From NCBI RefSeq assembly GCF_000203815.1, contig NW_004457624.1:558001-622000 (forward strand): 64,000 nt of DNA. The letters run 5' to 3'. This DNA is from Cavenderia fasciculata (taxonomy: Eukaryota; Evosea; Eumycetozoa; Acytosteliales; Cavenderiaceae). A program made the position numbers and the translations under genes. Below, one piece after another: positions 19,896-62,492 of the stretch (position 1 is its first letter; the number at the start of each line of letters is the position of its first letter). The notes beneath the pieces were generated by a model, which was not told the origin of the DNA, ran no database searches, and was given only the letters and a program-made list of their open reading frames with translations.

Positions 19896-22800
19896 ATGTC
19901 ACAATATTTGATATTAAATGAGCAATGTCTCACTAAAGCCAATGGTATGTAAAACATTAATCAACTGATCAAAATATAATCAATCTCTATTCTCTACTCT
20001 ACAAATACATAGATATAGATATAGAGATAGATATAGATATATAGATTTATATGTAGGATGTAATATGTTTACTAATCATTTTGATTTACTTTTACTTTTT
20101 AGATTTGGTACAAATGGGACAAATCACACAAGCTCTTGATACAATTAGAGATTTGTTGTTGTTCCGTAATGTATGGCACGCATCTTTGGAGAATGTGATG
20201 TCACTTTACATCAAGTTGGCTGTAGAGATTCCAATCAACAATGAACAGATTCTTTACATCAAGGATGGTTTGCATCAATATCGTGGTAGTTTGACTGCCC
20301 AAAAGGAGTACAACTACACTCCACTCGACAACATTATCCGTTTGTTGGTGTCTTTGGTCGAAGCCAAGCTCGAGCAAACCAACAAGGAGGTTGCCGAGAA
20401 CCCATTACCAGTTGCTGAAGGTGCCGTCGACGAGCGTCTCGCCCCAGTCCTCCGTCTCATGTCTGACTGTTTCCAAATCATTGTCGATATTCTCAAGTAC
20501 CCCAAGCTCGAAGTGTTGTACCTCAAGTACACCACCCAAGCCTTTGCCTTTATCGCCAAGTACGACCGTAAGAAGGAGATGTACCGTTTGGACGAGATCA
20601 TGCGTTCCCACGTCGAGAACTTGCTCAAGAGTCAAAACACCTACCTCACCCCCGAAACTGTCTATGCTCACGTTGACGCCCGTTTCGGTCAACTCAATAC
20701 CGCCATCTCTATGAATCTCTGGCAAGAGGCTTTCCGTGCCGTAGAAGACATCAATACTTTGTTTGGTATGCTTGCCAAGCCCAAGCCAAACGTATTGGCC
20801 AACTACTACCAAAAGCTTGCTCAAATCTACTGGGTGTCTGGCTCTCATTTGCTCCATGCCTACGCCTTGTACAAGCATCTCTTTTACAACAAGTCCTACA
20901 ATACTACCTTTGCCAACGAGGATTCGGAAGCCTATGGAAGTGTGTTGCTCGTCGCTGCCTTGTCCTCGCCACTCAACGAGACATCATCGACCAAGTCATT
21001 GTTGCATTTTGACAGCCAAGCTCAACGTAACACCAACCTTGCTGCTTTGCTCGGTCTCCCAGCCTTCCCAAAGCGTGATGCTTTCTTGTCGGACGTCAAG
21101 CGTCTCGTCGGAACCAGCAGCCAACCAGAGCTCGTCGACTTGTACGAACACCTCGAGGAACGTCCAGGCTCGCCACTCGTCATGGCCAAGACACTCGCTC
21201 CAGTCCTCGAGTACATTGCCAACTCGACCAACCTCTCGGTCTATCTCCGTGCCATGCAACGCACCGTCTTTGTCAAGACCGCCATCCAAGCCTCCAAGGT
21301 CTACGAAGTCGTCCGTCTCGACCAATTCGCCGCTCTCGTCCCATTCTTTGAGAGTCGTGAGATTGAAAAGATGTTGCTCGACGCCATCAAGAAGCGTCTT
21401 GTCGGTGCCCGTATCGACCATCGTGCCGGCGTCGTCCGTTTCGGTCACTATGACTTTGACAGCGCCAAGATTGGTGACCAGCTCTCTGGACTCGCCAGCG
21501 GTCTCCGTCGCGCCCTCTCGATGATCGACTCGCAAAAGAAGGACACCAAGTCGGTCAGCGACAAGCGTGAAGTGTATGTCCGTATCATCAACTCGCTCTC
21601 TGACGAACACCGTCGTATCCTCGCCCGTAAGGAGGTTATCGAGCGTAAGAAGATCTACACCGAGCAACAAGAACGTATCAAGCGTCAACGTGAGGAGGAG
21701 GAGCTCGAGCGTATCGCCGCCCAAAAGGCTGAGCGTGACCAACAACGTATGCGTGAAGATATGGAACGTCGTGAAAAGGAACAAAAGGAAGCCGAAAAGG
21801 CCGACAAGATCATCAACCTCACCATCACCAACGTCGACAAGGCCAAGGCCGACATGGCTGCCAAGGTTGCCATCCTCTCCAAGGAGCTCGAGTACACTGA
21901 ACGTGCCTTCCGTCACGAAGAATTGCCAATCTACAACGAATCACTCAACAACAAGACCAAGGAAGACAAGGAATACTTTGAACAACGTCAAGCCGAGGCC
22001 AAGAAGCACCACCGTGAATCGTTTGAACGTGCCATCTCTGAAAAGATGCGTCTTGCCCGTCTCACAGAAGACATTGCCATCTTTACCGAGCGTGTCCTCG
22101 CCGTCCGTCAAGAACAATTGCCAGCCCTCCAAGCCCAACAACAAGCTAGATTCCGTAAGTTTGTCGACGACGAACGTCAACGTCTTGCCGAAATCCGTGA
22201 AAAGAGACGTGAAGAAAAGAGAATTCAAGATGAAAAGCAAAAGAGAGAAGAAGAAGAACGTAGACAACGTGCCAAGGAAGAAGAAGAACGCAAGGAACGT
22301 GAGGAACGTGAAAGACAAGAACTCATCAAGAACGAGACCTTTATGCAAAAGAGAGAAAGAGAAAGAAGAGAAGCTGCTGCCGCCGGTAATGGCCCAGCTG
22401 CCTCTTCAACTGGTGGTTTTGGTGACGACGACAAGTGGAACCGTGAAATCACTCGTAATGATGGTGACAAGTGGGGTCGTGATGCTCCACGTAGAGACGA
22501 TGGTGACAGATTCCCACCACGTAGAGACGACGGTGGTGACAGATTCCCACCACGTAGAGATAATGGTTTCGGTGGTGATGCTCCACGTAGAGACGACGAT
22601 GGTGGCAGATGGGGTCGTGATGCTCCACGTGATGGTCCTCGTGACGGTCCTCGTGATGGTCCACGTAACGACGGTGGTGACAGATACGTTCCACCACGTA
22701 GAGACGGTGGTTTCGGTGGTGATGCTCCACGTAGAGATGGTGGTTTCGGTGGTGATGCCCCACGTAGAGATGGTTTCGGTGGTCCACGTGACGGTCCACG

Positions 22801-23254
22801 TAGAGATGGTGGTTTCGGTGGTGATGCTCCACGTAGAGACGACGATGGTGGTAGATGGGGTCGTGATGCCCCACGTAACGATGGTGGTTTCGGTGGTGAT
22901 GCCCCACGTAGAGATGGTTTCGGTGGTCCACGTGACGGTCCACGTGACGGTCCACGTAGAGATGGTGGTTTCGGTGGTGATGCTCCACGTAGAGACGACG
23001 ATGGTGGTAGATGGGGTCGTGATGCCCCACGTGACGGTCCACGTGATGGCCCACGTGATGGTCCTCGTGATGGTCCACGTGACGGTCCACGTGACGGTCC
23101 ACGTGACGGTCCACGTAGAGATGGTGGTTTCGGTGGTGATGCTCCACGTAGAGACTTTGGTGCCCCAAGAGACAACAACAACAACGCCAATAAGCCACCA
23201 GTCAAGAACCAAAAGGATGACGATGGATGGACCATTGTTGGAAAGAGAAAGTAA
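19896..23254 (+). CDS. eif3A: Translation initiation factor eIF3 subunit A
   Basis: eIF3a, the scaffold PCI subunit of eIF3. Exons are 19896-19944 (only 49 nt) and 20103-23254, giving 1066 aa; the short first exon supplies MSQYLILNEQCLTKAN, which aligns with the usual eIF3a start (ALKRANEF in man). Next come the helical repeats and PCI domain (about residues 1-500; RLDQFAALVPFFESREIEKM is in it), then a long charged coiled coil (about 540-780: ERIKRQREEEELERIAAQKA). The tail at about 795-1035 is a tandem array of Arg/Asp/Gly units (RRDGGFGGDAP, RRDDDGGRWGRDAP, DGPRDGP). Mammalian eIF3a also has a DDDRGPRR-type repeat tail, so the feature is ancient although the units differ. It ends in DDDGWTIVGKRK. 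Confidence 0.96.
22460..23160 (+). repeat. Tandem DNA repeats coding for the eIF3A tail
   Basis: Repeated words GGTCCACGTGACGGTCCACG, CCACGTAGAGA and GGTGGTTTCGGTGGTGATGC alternate many times. Units near 22735-22995 and 22930-23150 are nearly identical at DNA level, which points to recent expansion or gene conversion. The repeat keeps all three reverse-strand frames open for several hundred bases; those are shadows. Confidence 0.9.
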
Positions 23255-35943: not shown

Positions 35944-38900
35944 TTAAGTTGAATTCTTTGTAGATTTTGAAATGGAACTCAAAATTGTTTTAAAAGTTTG
36001 AATTACATTAAAACCTGATGGACTAGTTGGTGGGGAGGAAATACTTTGTTCGATACATTCACGAACCAAATCCAACAACTCGGAATGGATTCTTAATAAT
36101 TCCTCGATGGATTTGAATTTTGATTGTCTAACCATATCTGTAATGAGATTTGTTTCTTCATCATCAAAGTCTACACCAGTGCCAACATTGATTTGAGAGT
36201 TTTTGTACCATTCTTCGATTTGAAGTGTTTCAGCTTCTTGTTGTTCTTTTTCCTTGGCCTCTTTTTCCTCTCTTTCTTGTGTTTCTCTTTCCTCTCTTCT
36301 TTCCTTTTCCTCTCTTTCCTCCTTTTCATTTTCATCTTCAACCTCTACAACACCATTTTCTTGGTCTTGACTCATTTTCTTGTCACCATCTTCATCGTGA
36401 TGATCTTTTCCATTTTCTTTCATCTTTTCATCTTGACTATCATCATGATCCTTATGAATACCATTTCCATTCATTAAAGTAGATGTTGTAGAAGTGGTTG
36501 AAGTAGTTGAAGTGGTAGAAATAGTAGTTGTAGAAGTAGCAGTGGAAGTAGTTTCGTCATTTTGATTCTTTTCTTCTCCATCTTTTTCTTTTTCCTTTTC
36601 GAGTTCATTTTCATCTTTTTCTTTATCAGTTTCTTCTTGACTTTGTTGTTGTTGAGTAGTTTCTTTATCCTTGTCAACAGAGACTCTCTTTTTACGTGGT
36701 CTTCTTAAAAATGAATCCATCATTTCCTGTGTAATTTGGGTAGGTGTTTCACCACGGAGTCTTGCACTTCTAGTTGCCATTCTTGGTTCTGGACCATTAC
36801 CATTTAATTTTGCCAAACTTGATGATAATTGTACACTATTTACATGTTTATATTTTGGTGTAGGGATTGGTGGTGAACCCATAACATTATTACCATTACT
36901 ATTACCGTTATTATTATTATTATTATTATTATTGTTGATATTTCTTTTTGGTAATTTTTTAGCAATTGTTTCACAAGCACTAACAAGACTTGGATCAAAT
37001 TGTTCAACCATTTGTAATACTTCATCTTGTAATTGTTTGGCTCTTGAAATGGATTTGGCAGCATCGATTCCATCTGGATCATGGTGATTATAATATTCAA
37101 TAGTATTGAATACAATAAGATCAATGTCATTCAAGAATGCTGAAAGACATGAATATTGATGATTCTCTAAATTACTTGAAACTCTATATAAACTCATAGG
37201 TGTTTCAATTAATTCATAATATTCTGGACATAATTCAATATTCTAAAAAAAAACAAATAAATAAATAATTTCTTTTTTTTGTTGTTTTTTTTTTGTTTTT
37301 ATACTTACAACATCTCTAAAGAAAATTGCATATCTTCTATCATAAATAATCTTTGAAAGTGTTTCTCTTAACAATATTCTAATTTGTCTTAATAAATGTT
37401 CTTCACGTTTAACATCTCTTTGATCACCGGTCATCATTGGTACGATTGGTAAATTTTCCAATTCTCTTTTCTTTTCAATTTTCTTTTGATAGATTTGATA
37501 TAATGAACTTTTAATTTCCTTGAACATATTTCTATAAAATTGTAATAATTCAATCTATAATAAATAGAAAGTAAATATATGTACTTGTATATTCATTGTT
37601 TCTTGTTACTTACATCTTTTGGATAATCAATTATAAATACACCCTTTTTCTTTGTACTAAACATTTCCAAGAGATCAGTTGGAATTGTATCCTTTGGTTG
37701 TTCAATGGTAGCAATGACAAAGATTGGTTGATCAGAATCCATATTGTGAAGATAACTAGAGAGAGTATTGGCAAGTGATGTTATTTCCCACCACTTGTCA
37801 ATGTTGCAAAGATAGAGGACACTGGGAGCAACCTTTTTAGCTTCACTAAGGATTCTACAGCAAGACTCTTCGATTGATTTTGATGATGCATCTGATAGTA
37901 GGGTACAGATATCGATTGAAAAGGTTGGGAAATCTTCGAGGTTGTACAACAATGCATTGGCGAGTTGTATTTGACACATTCCCTTGTCTCCACCAATCAA
38001 TAGTCTAGGACGATAGATAGAGTTGGTGGTCATTGTAAATGTAAACTTTTCCTTTTCCGGTAGTTGGTTGTTTTGTTCGAGTTGGGTGGTTTGTTGTTTC
38101 GACGCCACAGTAAGTTTGGCGAGTTGTGATTTGGGAAAGATGGCGGGTACGTAGGAATCGACCAAGTTCTTGAGATAGGGTTCGAGCAGTGGTTTGATGG
38201 TCGACGAGAGTGGAGCCGAGAATGACGACACGGAACGACGCGACGTGGGGACAATAGTACGCATCGATTCGATAAAGTTGTGTCGTTGCACGGTGATGCT
38301 GTTGACATTGAGCAGAAACTTGGAGCTGCCGTCACCGCTGTAGATCTGGGGGTAGGCAGATCGCAGTGCACCGAGGACTGACTCGGAACAGAGTGCTTTA
38401 ATGTCTGCACCGCAGTATCCCGATGCACGCTCTGCCACCTCTTGAATGGTCGATTCGAGCAAGGGAGGTTTCCAGCTCTTTGTGTGGATCTCCAAGATAC
38501 GCTTACGCGCGGATGCGTCGGGTAGGGAAAACATGAGCTCGCGGTCGAAACGTCCGGGACGTCTGAGCGCGGGGTCGATCGAGTCGACTCGGTTGGTGGC
38601 ACCAATCACAATGACCTGTCCACGCGAGTCGAGCCCGTCCATCAATGCGAGCAGAGTAGATACGAGCGAGCTGTGGATCTGGTCCTGACGACTGCTTCGC
38701 ACGGGTGCCAGCCCGTCAATCTCGTCGAAAAAGATGATCGACGGCTGCATCGACTTGGCCTGCTCAAACAGGATACGCAGCTGACGTTCGGCCTCACCCA
38801 CCCACTTGCTCAGACAATCCGCACCCTTTCGCATGAAAAATGAGATGGGGCGATTACCCCCGGCAATCTTGTTGCACTCGTTGACAAGTGCACGTGCAAC

Positions 38901-40533
38901 CAATGTCTTGCCTGTGCCTGGTGGGCCGTAAAACAGCACACCTTTGGGTGCCGATATATCAAACTTTTGGAATACCTCTGGGTAGACCAATGGAAGCATC
39001 AGCATCTCCTTGAGCAGACGAATGTGTCCGTCCAACCCACCGACACTGTCAAAACCAACCGTCGTATCTATTTGCAGTGGTTCGGATCCCGTCGCGGTAA
39101 TGTCGCCACCACCATTATTATTATTATTGCTCGGATTGGATAGGTTGAAATTCATGGGAATATGTCCCCCCTTTGGTCCAAACGATCGTCCGGCCACACC
39201 GTTGATTGGAGTGACGGGGGTATCTGGTTCATTGTCGGAATTGTCAGTGTCTCGCGACGACGATCCATTTCGTCGTTGGGGTGGTGGTGGAATGTACATC
39301 TTGCCACCCGACACTCCTCTTGCCGAATGTTTTGGTGGGTATTCTTTGGTTGGATCATATCTACTTGTTGGAATACGTGTTCTTCTAGAGTTAGTTGGTG
39401 GTAGATTCTGTGCCCATGATGCACCTCTTGTCGTTGTTTTCTTCTTTTCAACCAAATCACCATTTTCATCCAATGGTGGTGTTGTATCTCCAACACTAAT
39501 CGCATCTATATCTTCCTCCTCTTCTTCCTCTTCTTCTTCACCTTCTTCTTCTTCTTCTTCTTCTTCCTCTTGATCACTATGTTTTGAACCTTCTTGTTCT
39601 TCTTGTTCCTCGACAAGTTGTTTTCTCTTTCTCTTTCCAAATGCATTTAAACTAAGATCAAGTGTATTCAAATCAATAGTTGATGTACTTCTTGTTCTAG
39701 TGGTTGGTAGATTACTATTATTATTATTATTCGACGATATTGATTCTCGTTTAATTGGTTGACGCATTACACGTTGGTATGGGTTACTATTGTATTGTGA
39801 ATCATCATCTGATTTTCTACCATTTCTAGTCGGTGTATGACTCTCCTCCTCTAATGTATCATGATAGAATCTTGGTTTCTTTATAGTTCTACCTGCTCTT
39901 GATTGTACCTATCATAACAATCAATCAATCATTAAACAGTTAGTTAATTGTCAATCATATCAATAGATTATCCTTTATACATACCATTGGAGGTGGAGAT
40001 TGTTGTTGTGGTTGTTGTCTACCATAATTTGATCTACGAGTCGTTGTAGTAGTCGAATATCTCTTTGTGACTCTTCGTTGTTGTTGTTGTTCTTCTTCCT
40101 CTTCTTCCTCTTCTGAATCATAATCATCTTGATAAAGTTTCTTGACTGGTCGTCTTGGTCTAAGATTAAACTTTTTCTTTCTTGCTTCATCTTCCTCCTC
40201 CTCTTCATCCTCTTCATGATATTCTGAATATTCTTCTTCTTCTTGTTGTTGTGGTTGTTTCTCTTCTTCCTCTTCTTGTGTCTGATCCTCTATCTCTAAT
40301 GGTTCTTCTTCTTCTTCTTCATTGTTGTCTTCTTGTGTATGTGGCTCATCATCTTGATCGACGCCGCTATCATCTCTAACTTGTTCCTCCTCTGTTTGAA
40401 CCTCTTCTTCTTCCTCTTGTTGTTGTTGTTGTGATGGTTGACCTCTTCGTCTAGCTGATAAAGGGGTTGATGGCGCTGATTGTTGGAGTGCCGCAATCAG
40501 CGATGCTGATCTGCTTCTTCTTGTGAATGTCAT
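35944..40533 (-). CDS. AAA-ATPase with bromodomain, ATAD2/Yta7-like
   Basis: Chromatin protein of the ATAD2/Yta7 family, which acts on histones with an AAA motor and a bromodomain. Exons are 40533-39985, 39908-37614, 37554-37309 and 37242-35944, all phase 0, 1462 aa. After an acidic Glu/Gln-rich N-terminus comes AAA-1 at about 460-700: Walker A GVLFYGPPGTGKT (near 503), Walker B SIIFFDEIDGLAP (near 575), and IDPALRRPGRFDRE with arginine fingers. A degenerate second AAA follows. The bromodomain at about 965-1110 reads CPEYYELIETPMSLYRV, then DIDLIVFNTIEYYNHHDPDG, split by two introns. The tail is a Glu/Lys-rich charged region. Family assignment is firm; the individual orthologue name is not given. 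Confidence 0.92.
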
Positions 40534-43930: not shown

Positions 43931-46900
43931 TTAATTATTTGAAGAAAGTGAATTGGAAGAATCCATTGATAGACATTTACTAGTTTCATCTTTAAGGTTC
44001 AAGATGTCATCCCAAAGGACACGATTTTCAATGTATGATTTTTCGCATTCCGTTAGTACGTCGATTGCTTCGATACAGGTGGGTCGAGTGGTAATATCCT
44101 TGTCCCAGCAGGAGAGAATGAGGTCTTTAATTTGTTGGGGTGCATTGTGTGGGATAGTTGGACGTAGGTTCTGATTGGATGTGTACAACATAATCTGGAA
44201 CTCATTGAGCTTCTTGTATTCACCATAAGGATGTAGGTAGCGACCGTTGACAAGAGCAAAGGCAAGCTCCCAAAAGACGACTCCGAGTGAATAGACATCT
44301 GACTTTTCCGAGTACTCTTTACCCTGGAAGACTTCGGGTGCACAATAGGCTGATGTACCACGTGTCTTGTTGAGCGTCATCTGGTTGGACTTGGTGTTGA
44401 ACCGAGACAGACCGAAATCGGCTACTTTGATGCGCCAGTCCCGTGTCACGAGGAAATTGAGTGATTTGACGTCACGATGCACAATCTGTGGCGACGACTG
44501 GTGCAACGTGGAGATACCGCGCAGCAACTGGCTGGCAAAGCTAAAGAACCGCTCCCACGTCATCTTTTCAGAGTGTAGTACCTGGTAAAGCGACCCTCTT
44601 GCACAATACTCCATGACGAGACAGATACGTGGTTCCAAAACGACACCATACAGCCCGACAATCATATTGGACTGAAGTGACGCGAGCACATGGAACTCTT
44701 TGAGAAACTCTTCACGGTTGTGTGCTTCGTCGGCAGATTTGAGCACTTTAATGGCGACTTCACGACCGCGATACAGTCCTTTATACACTTTACCAGAGAT
44801 ACCCGAGCCAATCTTGTCAGTGTACTCGAGTTCGTGTTGAGGGATGATCCAACGTCCGTTTTTAATGTCCATGTTTTCGAGTTCTTTGAGCAGGTCGATT
44901 GCACCGGGTGTGATGGCTGGCATGGTCGTGCCGCTGGGAATACGCTTGTGCTTGAGTGAGAGGAGTAACTTCTTTTGGTCTTCGTCGTAGCAACCGATAC
45001 GCACCATCATACTGTCATCCATACGCGACAGCGACCCCTCTTGCGACAACTCTTCGAGTATCAACGCCATACGGAACTGTGTCAACTGACACATGACGAG
45101 CGAGTTGATGATGATCTCGAGTCGACGCAGCAGGTCGATGATCTCTGGTACCAGACAACTGGGTTCTTCGGCCAGCATCAACGGCGTCTTTTTCTCGGCA
45201 GTCGAGATGAGTGTCGGGTCGGCACCAGCAGTAATCAACGTCTTGAGCACGTCGATACGTCCGAGACGCACCGCATAATGCAACGCACTCTCACCCTTTT
45301 TATTGACCAGGTTGACGTTGGCGTTGTTTTTGAGCAGTACATAGACCATCAAAAGTCGGACGCTATTATTAAAGATCGCCTTGTGAAGAGGGGTCTCCCC
45401 ATTATTGTTTTGCTCGTTGACATTGGCACCGCGCTCGATCAAGATCTGTGCAATCTTTTGGCATTCGGGCGACCGGTACTTTTGGCAAAAATAGTGTAGT
45501 GGTGTGTTACCATCAATGTTGCGTTCCTGGACACGTGTGTTGGGGTGGCGGATCAACTGCACCAGCATCGTGTCGGGAATGTCGCTAACCACAGCCACAT
45601 GTAGCGGTGTGTATCCCTCTTTGTCGGGATGGTTGACTTCGTCGGATTTCTTGGACGTGTAATACTCGAGCAGGATCTGCATCATCTCTGCCTCGCCCGA
45701 CTTTATCACGCTGATCAGTGGCGGATCCTCCGACCGACCCGGACGCAACGTGTTGAAAATGTTGCTGTTGTTGGTCGCCGCCGTCAAGTCCAAACTAGCA
45801 CCCCGCGACTTTCGATGTGGCTTGTTGGCCGTGACCAACTCTCTACTCTTTCTCTGATTCAATGCCTGTTTTAATCCATCCACATTCTTTTGTGTTATAC
45901 TCTCTGATAATAATTGTTTTTCTTGATGTAATAATAATGCCTCTATAATTTCAAATGCTTCTTCTTTATGAATAAATAAACAAAATTGATACTAAATGGA
46001 AAATTAAAAGTAAGTTAATATCTTTAAAAGTTATGATTATTATTATTTGAAGACATACATCTCTTTCATCAGTTTTAATTAAAATTCCATTTGGAGCTAA
46101 ACCAGATTTCTTTTCTATACTTTTTATCGATGAAAAAGATATAACTTTTTGTCTCTGTTTGGTTTTATCAAAAACCAAATTATCATAAAAACATAAATAA
46201 TGTTCAGTTAAATATAATTTACCATATTTTAATACAGATCCTTGATATCCACAACTATAATCTAAAAAATAAAATAAATAAAATAAATAAATGTTAATTT
46301 TCTTTAATAATTAATTGGTTTGTTTTTCTTTTTTTTTTTTCCTTTTTTTCTTACAAGTATAAACTTTTTCATCAAGTGGTACAAGAGATTTAAATAATTG
46401 TTGAAATTCTTTGGTTGCAGTATCAACACTACTTCTTCTAGATTTTGGAGTTGTCGATGTTGTTGTTGTCGTTGTAGTGGTTGAGGTGGTTGATGAAGTA
46501 GATATTGATAGACTGGAAGATAGACTTGCACTACTACTTGATAAATCAGCAATGGTTGCTGGTGATGAAGGAGAAGGAGAACTATGACTATTCTGTAGTG
46601 TGGTGCTTGAATGACTATGATGGATATTGAAATGTTGGTTTAGCTGTGGAATGTGACTAGTACTCATACTAGTATTGAGCATCGTCGGTGTGTAGGATCC
46701 TGCACTGTAGCTATGAGAAAGATTAAAACTACTACTATTCAATATTTCACTAGTGTTTGGTGTACTATTATTTTGATTATTATTATAATGACTACTATGA
46801 TTGAGTGTTGGTAGACTGCTTGCAAGCAATTCTTTTTCCAAATTGTTGTTGGTGTGATGATGATGATGGTGATTATTAGATTGCATGATCTCTGTGGGTG

Positions 46901-51500: not shown

Positions 51501-52406
51501 ACACAAATTATTTAATACATATCCCATCTGTGGGGTTGTTATGGTTGGTTGGTTCGTTCATTGACCATCACCACACTCTATTCCCCTAATCTTGATCGTA
51601 CGTATAACATTAAATGCATATTCCGCGAATGATAACCAAATAAAGATAACACTTTGAATTCGATCGATAACACACAAACAAAACAATGAAGTTCATTCAC
51701 CTTGGAGTTTTTTTGATTATTATTATAAATATACCTAATTTAATAAATATTATATAATCTAATCAAAAGGTGAAACTTAACTCACTACATTGGCAGATTT
51801 TAAAGGACCAAGTTAAGTCATTGTCATGATGCAGTTAGTATATTGGGTTACAGTCACTTTATACTTGTCGTCTATTCAAATGGATGTATCACTCAATCAA
51901 CAATCAAACAATTCCAAAAAAATCATTGGTCCTTCCCAAAAAGCTATAATCATCTGTAACCATATCTCAATGTATAAAGTAATTATGGACCTATATATCA
52001 ACAAGGTTTTTGAAACTGACTCTTTCCATTTGATAACAAATTTTTAAATTTATTTTTTATTTGTAAAATTAAATTAAATCAAAAAAATCAATCATCCAAA
52101 ACAAAATTCCCAGAATATTAATATTAATATTAATATTTAAATTTAATACTTATCCAAATATATTCCCACTTTTATTTAATAATATAATGTTTTATTTATT
52201 TTAATTTCTCCAACGATTTATTTTCGAGGAAATTTGAATTTTTCCCTCCATTTTTTTTTTTATAGGTCGAGTTTTTGGAGGGAGTTCATTTCATTAACTT
52301 TTTTTTATCTCAAATTTTGTACAAAGATAACTTTATTTTATATTATTTCACATTACTTCTTCTCATCATTACAGTCACTCATACATACAAATAGATAGAT
52401 CAGAGA
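48570..52406. other. Gene-free 3.8-kb stretch
   Basis: The longest gene-free stretch in the window. It lies between divergent start codons of the kinase and RPA1, so it holds both promoters and perhaps long leaders. It is made of simple tracts: (CT)n at 48855-48870 and 49013-49031, (GCTT)n near 49360-49435, A runs near 49584 and 49865, GTT and GGT triplets near 50637-50690. At 50690-51010 the G/C content rises (CCCGTCGAGGTTG, GGATCCGTGCTGCAC, and a C7 run at 50972). Short ATG frames at 51059-51283 and 51826-52047 lack protein character. No tRNA or snRNA recognised. Confidence 0.5.
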
Positions 52407-52884
52407 ATGGCAAATACACCAGTAAAGGGATGTTTGGAAAGATTTATTCAAGATGCAAATGGTAACACCAACTTGAATGAACCCAACATTATTGTTCAAA
52501 TCTTTCAGATCAAAGTTAAAGATGGCAAATATACGTAAGTATTGAAAGATATATAGATAGAGTCAAGAGATTATTAATATTGCTTATTATTATTTATCAA
52601 TTTATAATCATTTCTAGTGCAGTGATAACTGATGGAGCTACCAAGTTCCCAACAGTATTACCAAGCAACAATACACTCAGAGAATTTCAAATCATCCGTC
52701 TCAATTCATTTGCTGTGATGCAGGGCAAAAGATACGTGCAAATCTTCAACTATGATGTACTTGCAGATCTCCAGAGTTTGATTAATAACAACAACCTTAC
52801 CTACCATACCGTCTACTCTGCTCAACAACAACAACAACAGCAACAAAAGCAACAAATTCAACAAACTGGTGGTCAACAACAACC

Positions 52885-52919
<35 letters not shown>

Positions 52920-54578
52920 ACCAACAACAACGAAATAATAATAATAATAATAATCAATATAACAATAATAATAATAATAACTATAATAATAATAACTATA
53001 ATAATAATAATAATGGTGGTAATTATAGACAACCACAAGTATCATCATCACAAGGTAACAGTAATCAAAACAATATATGTGATATTGATGCATTGTCTGA
53101 GGGAATGGGTTCATACACGATTTGTGCAGTAGTCAAGAACAAGTCAGACATCAAGGAGTGGAAGAATGTGACAAGTAGTGGAAGATTGTTTTCGGTCGAG
53201 TTTGCCGACGACAGTCCCTCGACATGCAACACGATCAAGGCGACCGTGTTTGGCGACCCCTACTGCGCCTCTTTGCATCAACAACTAGAGGCTGGCAAAA
53301 CTTACATGGTATCTGGTAGTGGTGGTGTGCGCAAGAACTCGCAAAAGTTCAACAATACCAAGCATCAGTACGAGCTGACCCTTGGACGAGACACCACGAT
53401 CACCCCCGTCACCGACCAGTCGCAGGTGATCAAGTCGGCTGGCGTTGTCAAGTTCCAATTCACCCCCATCAACTCGTTGGTCTCTCTCGGCGCCAACATG
53501 ATGGTCGATGTACTCGGCGAGGTGACGAGCGTGTCCACTCCAATCGACATCACAACCAAGGCTACAGAGAGGGCCAAAAGCAAAGTTCTGCCCAAGTGGG
53601 CCATTACCATCCGTGACAACACCAACTCGGGCATTGAAGTGTCGTTTTGGGGTGATGACGTCGCCAAGTATCTCAACCAGATTACTGTAGGCATGATTGT
53701 CGGTATCAAGAATGCCAAGCTCACCCAATTCAACGGACACTCGCTCAGCTTCGGGTACTCATCCGAGATTGTCTTGGATCCACGTCATCTCGACCAATAC
53801 GAGGGGTTCCGTCAATGGATCGCCCACAACAGCGGCACAAACTGCGCCAGTCTCACCCAACGCTCGACCTTTACTGGCAACAGCACAAACAAGGACGCAC
53901 CTGTCCTGACCGTCGCCGAATTGCTCGCAATCCAAACCGAGCCTTTCGATGCCAACAACAACCCCAACCAATACGTTGTCCATGGTACCATTCGCCGTGG
54001 TGCTTTTGCCAAGGAGATCTCCAGAGACAACGGTCCAACTGTCAGCACATGTTGGTACGAAGGATGTGCAGGTTGTTTCAAAAAAGTTTGTGGAGGTCTT
54101 CCTAAATGTGAAGCTCCACGTATGACCAATATGTAAGAAAAGAAAAGAATAGAAAGAATAGAAAGAAAGCAAATAAGAATCTCTATAGACAACAAACAAA
54201 CAAACTAACATATTTTTCTTTTTCTTTAACTATAGTTGGAAACTACCAATTAAAATAGCAGATGATACTGGAACTCTCAGCAACGTTGACTTGTTCCAAT
54301 CTATTGCCCTCCCTATTTTGGGCCCTATCAGTGATTATGAACATTTAGATTCCACTGCATTCATTGCCAAACTTGACAAGGAATTAGGTTTTGAAGCCAA
54401 AGTTGTTGTAAAGTACTCTCAAACTACCGGAAATGCACCTGCAGGTGGTGATGGAACAACAACTTATCACCGTTACAGTGTACATCAACTCGAACGTACC
54501 ACCGGAGCACATTTACAAAATATTGCTCGTGATCTAGCCTTTGCACTCACTTCTGTTGTCATTCCAGATGAACAATAA
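52407..54578 (+). CDS. rpa1: Replication protein A large subunit (RPA70)
   Basis: Single-stranded DNA-binding protein of replication and repair. Exons are 52407-52534 (128 nt), 52618-54132 and 54236-54578, both introns phase 2, 661 aa. Domains: RPA70N at about 1-110, a Gln/Asn-rich linker at about 120-200, DBD-A at about 215-330, DBD-B at about 345-450, DBD-C at about 470-655. The DNA-stacking aromatics have counterparts: Phe in GRLFSVEF and SQKFNNTK (DBD-A), Trp in VSFWGDD and Phe in LTQFNGHSLSFG (DBD-B). A Cys cluster CWYEGCAGCFKKVCGGLPKC fits the DBD-C zinc ribbon. First of three tandem RPA70 genes and the only one with all parts, so the canonical copy. Confidence 0.95.
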
Positions 54579-54874
54579 TCATCCACTCTTATAAATATAT
54601 ATATTACTAGAATTCAAAGATCAAACCTATCATTCTTTTCTTTTTCATCAACAACAACAATTGTTTAAAAATTAAATTAAATATTCAATTATAATTATAC
54701 CCATTTTTATTTTAAAATAAATAAACTTTACTTTCTTTTTTTTTTAAAATAATAAATTATTTATCATTCCAATAAAAAAAGGGTTGAGCTTCAAGTTCAA
54801 GAGTTTAGGGTTTATTATTAATCTTTTTGGATAATAATAGAGAAAAGAATATATGTGTATTTGTAGAGACAAGG

Positions 54875-56733
54875 ATGATGATGATTGATGAACCAATTAA
54901 AGGGTGTATGGATCAATACATCAATTCAGAGTATACAGGAGAAAGGATAAAAGATGATGATATAGTATTACAAGTTCAAAGATTAAAACCAACAAATAAA
55001 TCGTATGTTATATCTCTATTTCTTCATTTCTTTTAATATTTGTAATACTAACTCTATTCCTCGATATATATAATATATATCTATAGATCATACATTCAAT
55101 TATATCTATCAGATTCAATTCATTTGTTTACATCATTGTATCGAATCAAAAAGAAACATGATGACGACGATTATGATGTCTATGATGATGATAATCTTCT
55201 TCCACCAAAATGTAATGAATTGATTAGAATCAAATCATTAACATTAACAAAAGAGAAACATATTGTTATTAAAGAGTTTGAATCACTTGGTATTCTTTCA
55301 ACACTGATTGGTCGACCTAAACTTCATATGGTCTATCAACCTCTTGTACAACGGTACATAACAGTCAGGAATCTTCAAAAATATAGTCAACCTAAACCAT
55401 CTTCAGTATCAGAGGATCATGACAAACAATATGGAATCACAAGTTTAAAAGATTTGAAAGAGGGAGTCTCAGACTATCACTTGACCGTATGTGTATTGGT
55501 TAGAATGAAATCAGAGCTTAGAGAAGGACCAAGAGGTAGTGTATTTACATTAGAGTTGGTCGATACCAAAACACATGATTGTGTGCCGGCAGTATCATTT
55601 AGTCAGGAAATGTATGGCAAGCTTGAACAAGACAAGACATACTATATATATTTGAGACCTTCAAATTATACTGCAATTCATCCAGGATTTCCAAGGAATA
55701 ATAACTCAAAATTTCAATTGGTCATTGACAAGACGGCCAAGGTATTAGAGGTACCTCCTCAACAAAGATTACATCAAGATGCATGGACCAAATTCAATTT
55801 TATAAATATCGATCAGTTGGGCCCAACTGCAATCCCTATCGAGACTGTCAATAGAGATTCAATATTGGTAGATGTAATTGGTAAAATATTGTCTATATCA
55901 GATATATCATCAATCGAATTGCGTAATGGTGGTATTGTCCCTACTCTATTAGTCAATATTTTCGACACTTCAAATACATCGATCGATATTACATTTTGGG
56001 GAGAACATGCACTTAGCTGTCAACAACAATTAAAAGTTGGTGATATTATAACTCTCTATCAAGTTAAATTGACCAATTACTCTGGTAGATCACTTTCATT
56101 TGCAACGTCTCGTCTTGATATCAATCCATCAAACTTTCCTCAATATCAACAACTTTTGGCATTTATCAATCATCCAACTACTATAGAGAGTAAGATATTG
56201 GAACCAAAAAACCTTTCATCCAACAAATCCCCAGACAAAGCAGATATGCATCCACCAATAACTGCTAAATACCTCCTTTCAAATCCAAATTTTGAAGATT
56301 ATAAAGAAGGAGCTACAAATATCTATGTACTCAATGGTATATTTATCAAAGATCCAGTTCAACCAATCACAAAATCTTATAGGTATGAATGAAATACTCA
56401 ATCAATCAATTATTATTATTATTAATTAAATTATTATTATTAATTTTTCTTTTTTTTTTCTTTGTTTCACAAAGCCAAACACATCGAAAATATATATTTA
56501 CAGATGAAACTGGGTCAGTCAATATATCTATTATTGGATATTCTGAATCCAAAGTATTTGGTCCAAATGTCCAACAAGACAACAACACCACTAGTTCTTT
56601 ACGAATGATGATTAAAAAAGAAAGACCTTCAGATGGTGAACATCATCAGATTTCAGGACCAGCTTTAAATTTCTCAATTGTCGGTGAAAACCTCAAATTA
56701 TATGTACATAATATAAATACTCTAGGACTATAG
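54875..56733 (+). CDS. Divergent RPA70 paralog 2, no zinc ribbon
   Basis: 560 aa. Exons are 54875-55002 (128 nt, same length as in RPA1), 55087-56382 and 56475-56733; both introns are phase 2 and at homologous places. Start chosen at the ATG triplet MMMIDEPIKGCMDQYI, since the longer frame opens with a TTG. An RPA70N-like domain (KGCMDQYINSEYTG against KGCLERFIQDANGN), DBD-A (GSVFTLELVD with its Phe; NSKFQLVID) and DBD-B (ITFWGEHALSC with its Trp; LTNYSGRSLSFA with Tyr for Phe) are kept. The region of the zinc ribbon is cut short and has no Cys pairs, though the final beta part survives (RKYIFTDETGSVNIS). Probably still binds ssDNA; role unknown. Confidence 0.88.
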
Positions 56734-56906
56734 GAAAATAAACTAGTAAGAATATATTTCCAAGAAAAATGAAATTCAATTTTCCGATTGCTTGTTCAAG
56801 ATTTGAGTACAAGCTAAAGTGTCTCTAAATGTAAAATATGATATTAAATTAAATTTTGTATATTTAGACAAGTAGGTAGAGTTGTATAAACTTTTGAAAA
56901 GACACA

Positions 56907-58163
56907 ATGACAACGACGATATTAGGAAGCTTGATCAAGTATATGACAGATGAGGATAGTATTGGAACGGTTGTACATTTCAATGTTGGTATAAACGTTC
57001 ATATTGATTCGATCACACCATCTATATCGTCTATTACCTCTGATAATGAAGATAATAATGAAGATAATACATACAGGTAAGAAGAAGATGAAGAAGATGA
57101 AGAAGAAGAAGAAGAAGAACGGAAAAGAAACGTCCTTCTATTATTATTATTAATATAATATAGTTATAGTGCAGATATATATGATAATTTCTTCAAATAT
57201 AAAGCAAAGTTACATTGTGATAGTGGTGGTTTACCAATTAACAATCAAACCATCAAGATTGTCAGACTCAAGGTTTCACTATCCGACCGACATGTACATA
57301 TCTATCAATACTTGAGAATGCCAACAATGCCACTAAGAGACAAACAATACATTTCATATCATCCCGCTTACATTGAAGCGAAATCAACAACACCCTCTTA
57401 TTCAAATATTGAGTATCTAGCAACTGGTCAAACAGTCTTTGCCATCAAGGTTCGTGTCAATAGAAAGACAGTGTCTGTAGACGGAATATTTCACCGTGTT
57501 GAATTGGTTGACAATAGTTCATCTACTCTCAATTCCATCGTTGCACTCATTCCAGCCAAACTCTCTGGCGATTACCTCTTTAATCGATTGCAAAAAGGTA
57601 AAACTTTTTCCATCGAGAGTGGACCTGGATGTAAAGTAAATACTTGGCCTACATTAGAGTCCAATACACCATGGTACGTGAATACTAGCTATTTTATAAA
57701 CTGTTCCAAACAAAATCCTCTCTTTCTCCATTTGACAATCAACGCCATCATAACCAAGATACCACCACAACAATTGACAGAACCTCCTCAACCATTTTCA
57801 GGTCCACCAACCAAAAAACTTGTACTCCAGGCTATCTATTTTGCACCGTTTATGTTGGTCGATATCCTGGGTGAGGTACTCAGAGTACATCAACTTAGAG
57901 TGATCACCAAAAGAAAAAGAAATTATATCAAACAAATTCCTCATTTCTCTCTAGAACTTAAACGTGGCAGCGAAGCCATTGAAGTTGTATTTTGGGCAAA
58001 AGATGCATTGGCCTATTCAAAGATGGCTATCGAACCTGGTGATACTCTCTATATTACCAAACTTAAATGTGATCATCATCATGGAGGTTCCGTACTTTAT
58101 TTTTTATCCATTTCTGATCTCGTCAAACAAACAGATAAAGATGTTGAAATGTATGACTTTTAA
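56907..58163 (+). CDS. Divergent RPA70 paralog 3, lacks DBD-C
   Basis: 389 aa. Exons are 56907-57076 and 57164-58163, intron phase 2 at the same place as in the other two RPA70 genes (between YR/S and YSAD, matching KYT/AVITD). The first exon is lengthened by a Ser/Asp/Glu/Asn insert. DBD-A-like (DGIFHRVELVDNSSSTLNS) and DBD-B-like (EVVFWAKDALAY, Trp kept) domains are present; the last stacking residue falls in CDHHHGGSVLYFL and is not aromatic. The protein ends right after DBD-B, so the trimerisation and zinc part is missing. The RPA heterotrimer forms through DBD-C, so this one should act outside RPA. Confidence 0.85.
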
Positions 58164-58184
58164 AAAACAAATGTAAATAAGATC

Positions 58185-58309
<125 letters not shown>

Positions 58310-58323
58310 TTTATTTATTTATT

Positions 58324-59110
58324 TTAGAATTGAGTTTCTGGACGGTTCTTGAGGTATTCAGCAATTTGTGGAATTTGAGAAAACTTCAAGGCAAATGCTT
58401 CCAAGGTTGGGTATCCTTTGATTTGTTCACCAAAACCTAACTTTTTAAGATACTCAAAACCAAAATAGATTGCAATATCTCCCCATGTATATTGTTTTCC
58501 AACCTAATTTAATACAAAAAAAGAAATAAATAAAAAGGTTAATTTTATAAATATTTTTTTTAATATGTTTCTCTAGTTTACTTACAAAATGTTGACCTCC
58601 ATTCTTGATTAATAACTCTTCTAATTTGGAAACAAACTTTTGAATGGTTTCATCTTTAAACTTTTGGAGCTTCTCTGGGTTGTCACGTGAAGAAAAGTAT
58701 GGCGATAAAATATCCCAAAGTGAATCAGCAACACCATCAATCAAGGCACTTTCCAAGTCGGTAGAGCCAGCTAACCCATGTTGCTTGGCAACATAACGAG
58801 CAATGGCATAGGATTGAGAGATTCTGACATCATTGTCTTCATAAAAAGGTAATTGACCAAAAGCAAGCTTTTCAGATAATCCTTGAGTCTCTTTGATTGA
58901 CTTTACTCTTTGATCATCAAACTTGACATTGGCAAAAGTTAAGATTAATCTAATAAGTTCACCACGACCTTGACCGTTAAACTATTCAATCGAAATAATA
59001 AAAAGAAAGAAAGAAAGAGAAATAAACATTAATATAATGTCGTACTTGTACTATTTAATATACTACATGAATGAATGAATAAATCATACATAATATAAAG
59101 TTGGAGACAT
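58324..59110 (-). CDS. Glutathione S-transferase
   Basis: Cytosolic GST of the alpha/mu/sigma-like group, 198 aa. Exons are 59110-59090 (21 nt, MSPTLYY), 58981-58586 and 58503-58324, all phase 0. The short first exon gives the N-terminal strand ending in the Tyr expected at the catalytic site (PTLYYFNGQGRGELIRLI). Other landmarks: FGQLPFYEDNDVRISQSYAI (Gln-Leu-Pro and the Gln-Ser that bind glutathione), RYVAKQHGLAGS, and in the C-terminal domain YTWGDIAIYFGFEYL. It conjugates glutathione to electrophiles. Convergent with RPA70 paralog 3 across the AAT repeat. Confidence 0.92.

Positions 59111-59467: not shown

Positions 59468-62492
<3,025 letters not shown>

Follow-up and report, generated by a model that had tools for sequence, protein, structure and literature searches.

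Three tandem RPA70-family genes in Cavenderia fasciculata: an RPA70 and two diverged paralogues that have probably lost the trimerisation core

Replication protein A (RPA) is an essential complex, and its subunits are usually kept intact. In Cavenderia fasciculata (assembly GCF_000203815.1; 31.0 Mb, 21 contigs), the gene for the large subunit, RPA70 (RPA1), is followed by two strongly diverged relatives. The locus lies in a 64,000-nucleotide stretch of contig NW_004457624.1 (positions 558,001 to 622,000, forward strand), called the window here and used for all coordinates unless another contig is named. Three intact genes occupy the plus strand from 52407 to 58163. Their complete lengths are 661, 560 and 389 codons (genes 1 to 3), with gaps of 296 bases between genes 1 and 2 and 173 bases between genes 2 and 3. 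All five introns are GT-AG and in phase 2. An earlier note on this DNA had described one RPA70 and two diverged tandem paralogues on the same strand; the intact frames and the matches to the family or to gene 1 bear this out. The possibility that genes 2 and 3 form one fused gene was rejected, as the two have separate starts and stops and separate intron patterns. The features are as follows (DBD, DNA-binding domain).

52407-54578, plus strand: gene 1, RPA70/RPA1; exons 52407-52534, 52618-54132 and 54236-54578; domain order N-domain, Q/N-rich linker, DBD-A, DBD-B, DBD-C
52535-52617, plus strand: intron 1 of gene 1
54133-54235, plus strand: intron 2 of gene 1, within DBD-C
54875-56733, plus strand: gene 2, diverged RPA70 paralogue; exons 54875-55002, 55087-56382 and 56475-56733; domain order N-domain, short linker, DBD-A, DBD-B, C-terminal region free of a cysteine cluster
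55003-55086, plus strand: intron 1 of gene 2
56383-56474, plus strand: intron 2 of gene 2, within the C-terminal region
56907-58163, plus strand: gene 3, shorter and more diverged paralogue; exons 56907-57076 and 57164-58163; domain order weak N-domain, DBD-A-like, DBD-B-like, without DBD-C
57077-57163, plus strand: intron 1 of gene 3; an alternative acceptor is possible six bases downstream

Judged by sequence similarity, gene 1 is the RPA70 of this genome. It matches TIGR00617 (E 9.6e-57; 192.8 bits, under the model cut-off of 334.2) over a stretch that starts ahead of DBD-A and reaches into DBD-C. Human RPA70 (E 1.3e-26) and REPA_OB_2 (56 bits) are also matched. In gene 1, human F238, F269, W361 and F386, which we take to be the base-stacking aromatics of DBD-A and DBD-B, correspond to F, F, W and F (four of four). 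The earlier description of this gene as canonical holds for its identity; in its domains it is near-canonical only. The N-domain stays sub-threshold in Pfam (20.5 bits against a cut-off of 26.7), and the DBD-C piece searched alone matched no RPA model there. Five cysteines are present in DBD-C (54050-54118), where C-E-A-P replaces C-x2-C, with proline at what is presumably, from the human ligand spacing, the usual fourth zinc ligand. With this last ligand missing, even the main RPA70 looks unusual.

Gene 2 likewise belongs to the RPA70 family, as indicated by its matches to REPA_OB_2 (49.8 bits) and human RPA70 (E 3.6e-9). The TIGR00617 match (E 7.3e-18; 64.4 bits, sub-threshold) stops with DBD-B, and a putative N-domain is recognised via gene 1. 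The four stacking positions carry F, N, W and Y, with a phenylalanine near the N: three of four aromatics are retained when Y is accepted for F386, and the fourth depends on the alignment. Because the DBD-A/DBD-B pair and most of its stacking aromatics are kept, the protein should still bind single-stranded DNA (ssDNA). A cysteine cluster is missing from the C-terminal region (roughly 130 residues), which aligned with gene 1 DBD-C no better than shuffles did. A MAFFT alignment with 31% identity between these two regions was left unused, since gap placement was free and the shuffle test was not significant. With neither a zinc ribbon nor a C-terminal trimerisation helix recognisable, gene 2 should not stand in for RPA70 in the heterotrimer with RPA2 and RPA3.

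Gene 3 is tied to the family through its match to gene 1 (E 3.9e-5 in the genome-wide protein search) and passed no family cut-off in Pfam or NCBIfam. Profile searches, proposed in the earlier note as a check on the RPA70 membership of both paralogues, thus place gene 2 through REPA_OB_2 and leave gene 3 below every cut-off. The same note assigned RPA70N-, DBD-A- and DBD-B-like domains to all three genes. DBD-A and DBD-B are confirmed, and the N-domain similarity of gene 3 is marginal. The protein ends after DBD-B, without DBD-C or a cysteine cluster, and has P, F, W and H at the stacking positions (two of four). Given the loss of DBD-C and of some stacking residues, the protein probably binds DNA less tightly, or contacts other proteins through its oligonucleotide/oligosaccharide-binding (OB) folds instead; ssDNA binding by gene 3 is doubtful. 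The trimerisation core was probably lost in steps, gene 2 lacking a recognisable DBD-C and gene 3 ending after DBD-B. This loss is absent from the earlier note.

The family appears confined to this locus. Genome-wide protein searches with genes 1 to 3 returned it and one chance-level match (E 1.9), and a REPA_OB_2 search of the genome found genes 1 and 2 only; these searches were run exon-wise with the best candidates scored, so that very diverged extra paralogues could escape. In the window, tblastn with the three proteins gave no additional place at E up to 1. Intron 1 lies at codons 43, 43 and 57 of genes 1 to 3, in a common gap-rich stretch of the N-domain alignment, in agreement with the earlier claim of a phase-2 intron at a corresponding place after the N-domain start. 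In genes 1 and 2, the second intron lies 12 and 13 residues, respectively, ahead of the G in a D-D/E-T-G motif. The tandem order and the corresponding introns point to duplication at the DNA level. A recent event was rejected, as third codon positions of the gene 1-gene 2 and gene 1-gene 3 pairs are near chance, and a direct-repeat search of 52000-58330 returned only simple repeats and short two-copy matches. Alignment scores of 280 (gene 1 and human), 254 (genes 1 and 2) and 157 (gene 2 and human) are compatible with a dictyostelid duplication as well as with an earlier event.

Genes 2 and 3 are apparently under constraint. In the two comparisons with gene 1, identity at the first and second codon positions is far above chance, in alignments whose choice by protein similarity raises the identities at these positions. 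Between genes 2 and 3, the identities at the three positions are 0.36, 0.57 and 0.39, against chance values of 0.26, 0.27 and 0.30. Neutral decay to 27% identity, simulated in 100 runs with indels ignored, would leave 4-20 stops in every 255 codons (mean 13); zero were observed. GC3* is 0.218 in gene 2 and 0.299 in gene 3, lower than in 11 and 10, respectively, of 12 reference open reading frames of the window, and 0.468 in gene 1, higher than in nine of them. We chose these references from 24 frames, omitting the three RPA frames, five other frames within an eIF3a-like gene and four further frames. The low codon bias of genes 2 and 3, with its AT-ending codon choice, suggests that their expression would be low or limited to certain stages.

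On balance, we favour the view that RPA70 was duplicated in tandem and that selection has maintained genes 2 and 3, which would encode low-expressed accessory ssDNA-binding proteins outside the RPA heterotrimer. Two DNA-level duplicates of the dictyostelid RPA70 would have changed role, most likely to become accessory or competing ssDNA-binding factors that work alongside RPA in a single branch of DNA metabolism. Repair, macrocyst meiosis and telomere ends are candidate settings, among which sequence alone does not choose. Several points weigh against this view. The choice of alignments noted above works in favour of apparent constraint, and the third position of the gene 2-gene 3 pair exceeds the first. 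Structure prediction from three-row alignments gave poor models (mean pLDDT 46 and 42). The predicted OB fold of gene 3 DBD-A is the sole partly confident region, and the RPA-like fold of gene 3 is not independent evidence because the alignment also contained the rows of genes 1 and 2. The loss of DBD-C from gene 2 rests partly on undetected similarity. A very diverged, working trimerisation domain is possible there, because Pfam also misses DBD-C of gene 1. Finally, as to partner availability, neither RPA2 nor RPA3 was located by the exon-wise family search of the genome. Searches with Rep-A_N, POT1 OB1 and RPA3 gave no match, and were uninformative because none of 14 control genomes was matched either. 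Rep_fac-A_C found nothing in this genome and matched two of the 14 controls. RPA_C gave one sub-threshold match (L017; contig C8, 293719-293922, minus strand; E 0.17; 17.2 against 22.6 bits), in a 470-residue open frame; the match could mark RPA2 or be due to chance.

In one rival explanation, genes 2 and 3 would form alternative RPA heterotrimers with RPA2 and RPA3 or paralogues of these, DBD-C of gene 2 being strongly diverged; such trimers have been proposed for the RPA1 paralogues of plants and ciliates. Gene 2 does retain its C-terminal region, with a phase-2 intron placed as in gene 1, and passages of PMC4731521 describe green-algal RPA1B-like proteins without a conserved zinc finger; we consider this account unlikely, yet the most serious of the alternatives. 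It is quite unlikely that the two genes are a dictyostelid-specific ssDNA-binding set, independent of RPA2 and RPA3, that serves macrocyst meiotic recombination or the maintenance of TTAGGG telomeres. In another account, the two genes would encode meiosis- or macrocyst-specific ssDNA-binding proteins that act in the manner of MEIOB, in a group where D. discoideum lacks SPO11. Low codon bias fits narrow expression, and MEIOB was not found in amoebozoan genomes according to passages of PMC4830875. However, genes 2 and 3 have an N-terminal region that MEIOB, as described there, lacks, and are without its cysteine motif. The MEIOB Pfam model, moreover, matches gene 1 (sub-threshold) and neither paralogue at E up to 1, so that this explanation appears distinctly unlikely.

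A telomere-specific paralogue, comparable to ciliate Teb1 or a POT1 helper and acting on TTAGGG ends, is very unlikely. Runs of four T(T/A)AGGG repeats were found on five contigs, and all listed matches read TTAGGG; on C1, C6 and C8 the arrays are at most 2 kb from the start of the contig, and C2 and C18 carry further arrays. D. fasciculatum telomeres are given as TTAGGG, and those of P. pallidum as TAAGGG, in a passage of PMC6759168. DBD-B of gene 2 has a sub-threshold match to POT1PC (E 2.1e-5; 24.9 bits, cut-off 27.2), as has gene 2 to the POT1 model (15.6 bits, cut-off 29); gene 3 matched neither the POT1 OB1 nor the OB2 domain model at E up to 1. In Foldseek, Teb1 AB takes second place with the gene 3 model and sixth place with that of gene 2. 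Model residues 72-205 account for most of what the VIA-align rows cover; further OB-fold proteins (BRCA2, CST, telomere end-binding protein, HIN domains) come next, no more than some 2 Z units behind. RPA70 itself outscores Teb1 and POT1, many further OB-fold proteins score nearly as high, and such matches are expected because both are OB-fold relatives of RPA. A POT1 candidate of D. discoideum is, moreover, named elsewhere in its genome in part of PMC6759168. Decaying duplicates, or young pseudogenes, would account for the poor codon bias, the short gene 3 and the lost key residues; we give this little credence, as frames and splice sites are intact at below 30% identity and the simulated stops are absent. 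Some Helitrons and viruses carry RPA-like genes. Such an origin for genes 2 and 3 has an almost negligible chance in view of their tandem head-to-tail order, and it was rejected on their single copies, on introns that match those of the resident RPA70 in phase and position and on the lack of an IMG/VR relative for alignment A3.

Read as accessory ssDNA-binding proteins, genes 2 and 3 can be set beside known systems. With RPA70/RPA1 (TIGR00617; REPA_OB_2, Rep-A_N) all three genes have the DBD-A/DBD-B tandem in common; genes 2 and 3 differ from it in having no recognisable C4 zinc ribbon of DBD-C or trimerisation helix, and gene 1 in lacking the usual last zinc cysteine. Plants likewise have several RPA1 genes per genome, some with altered zinc motifs, according to parts of PMC4731521. 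The sequences analysed there have all four domains, whereas genes 2 and 3 are tandem copies with less than 30% identity. The same passages mention putative plant RPA1 orthologues with a DBD-C deletion, so that a set of N-domain, DBD-A and DBD-B without the trimer core appears to have a precedent. Teb1 of Tetrahymena telomerase is also an RPA1 paralogue (passages of PMC6562869), and its AB domains rank high for both models. It partners Teb2 and Teb3 in telomerase, whereas genes 2 and 3 have no recognisable partner-binding C-terminal domain and share with it OB-fold similarity only. MEIOB, found in animals, Capsaspora and some fungi, is an RPA1 paralogue whose domains deviate from those of RPA1 (parts of PMC4830875). 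It lacks the N-domain and keeps the cysteine motif, the reverse of genes 2 and 3. Oxytricha has eight RPA1 paralogues, five of them preferentially expressed during macronuclear development (passages of PMC5312943). RADX, an OB-fold protein described with PDB entry 8u5y as forming its own trimer on ssDNA, is ninth for the gene 2 model; it is longer than the gene 2 protein, and the likeness shown is one of model ranking.

The suggestion in the earlier note of something undescribed at this locus does not stand as far as its kind goes, as RPA1 paralogues are already reported in plants, ciliates and animals. Going by the passages cited, such paralogues are an established theme, and DBD-C deletion also has its plant precedent. 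None of the literature passages considered here describes diverged tandem copies with graded loss next to an intact RPA70. No title or abstract start among the literature matches listed concerned dictyostelid RPA70 paralogues. RPA is absent from the main text of PMC8529158, on D. discoideum DNA repair, and the term RPA70 from that of PMC3627910. A 47-protein set in PMC5114724 includes 'rpa1', the passage not stating whether replication protein A or an RNA polymerase subunit is meant. Published RNA-seq of D. fasciculatum development is mentioned in PMC4931340. The locus would show how a general ssDNA-binding subunit can become a specialised protein beside a working RPA70. Genes 2 and 3 also offer two simple knock-out targets for candidate private dictyostelid ssDNA-binding proteins in repair, meiosis and telomere care.

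Immediately 3' of gene 3 lies a microsatellite, a perfect (AAT)n array with some 40 units (58185-58306). Downstream neighbours on the minus strand are a glutathione S-transferase exon (58457-58981) and a cullin neddylation domain (59471-59797). Elsewhere on the minus strand, an AAA ATPase with an acidic N-terminal region (37596-39767) and an ankyrin-repeat protein kinase (43934-45883) are encoded. The eIF3a-like gene (20081-23251) has a PCI domain and a long, repetitive R/D/G-rich C-terminal tail, and further frames are open across its length on both strands.
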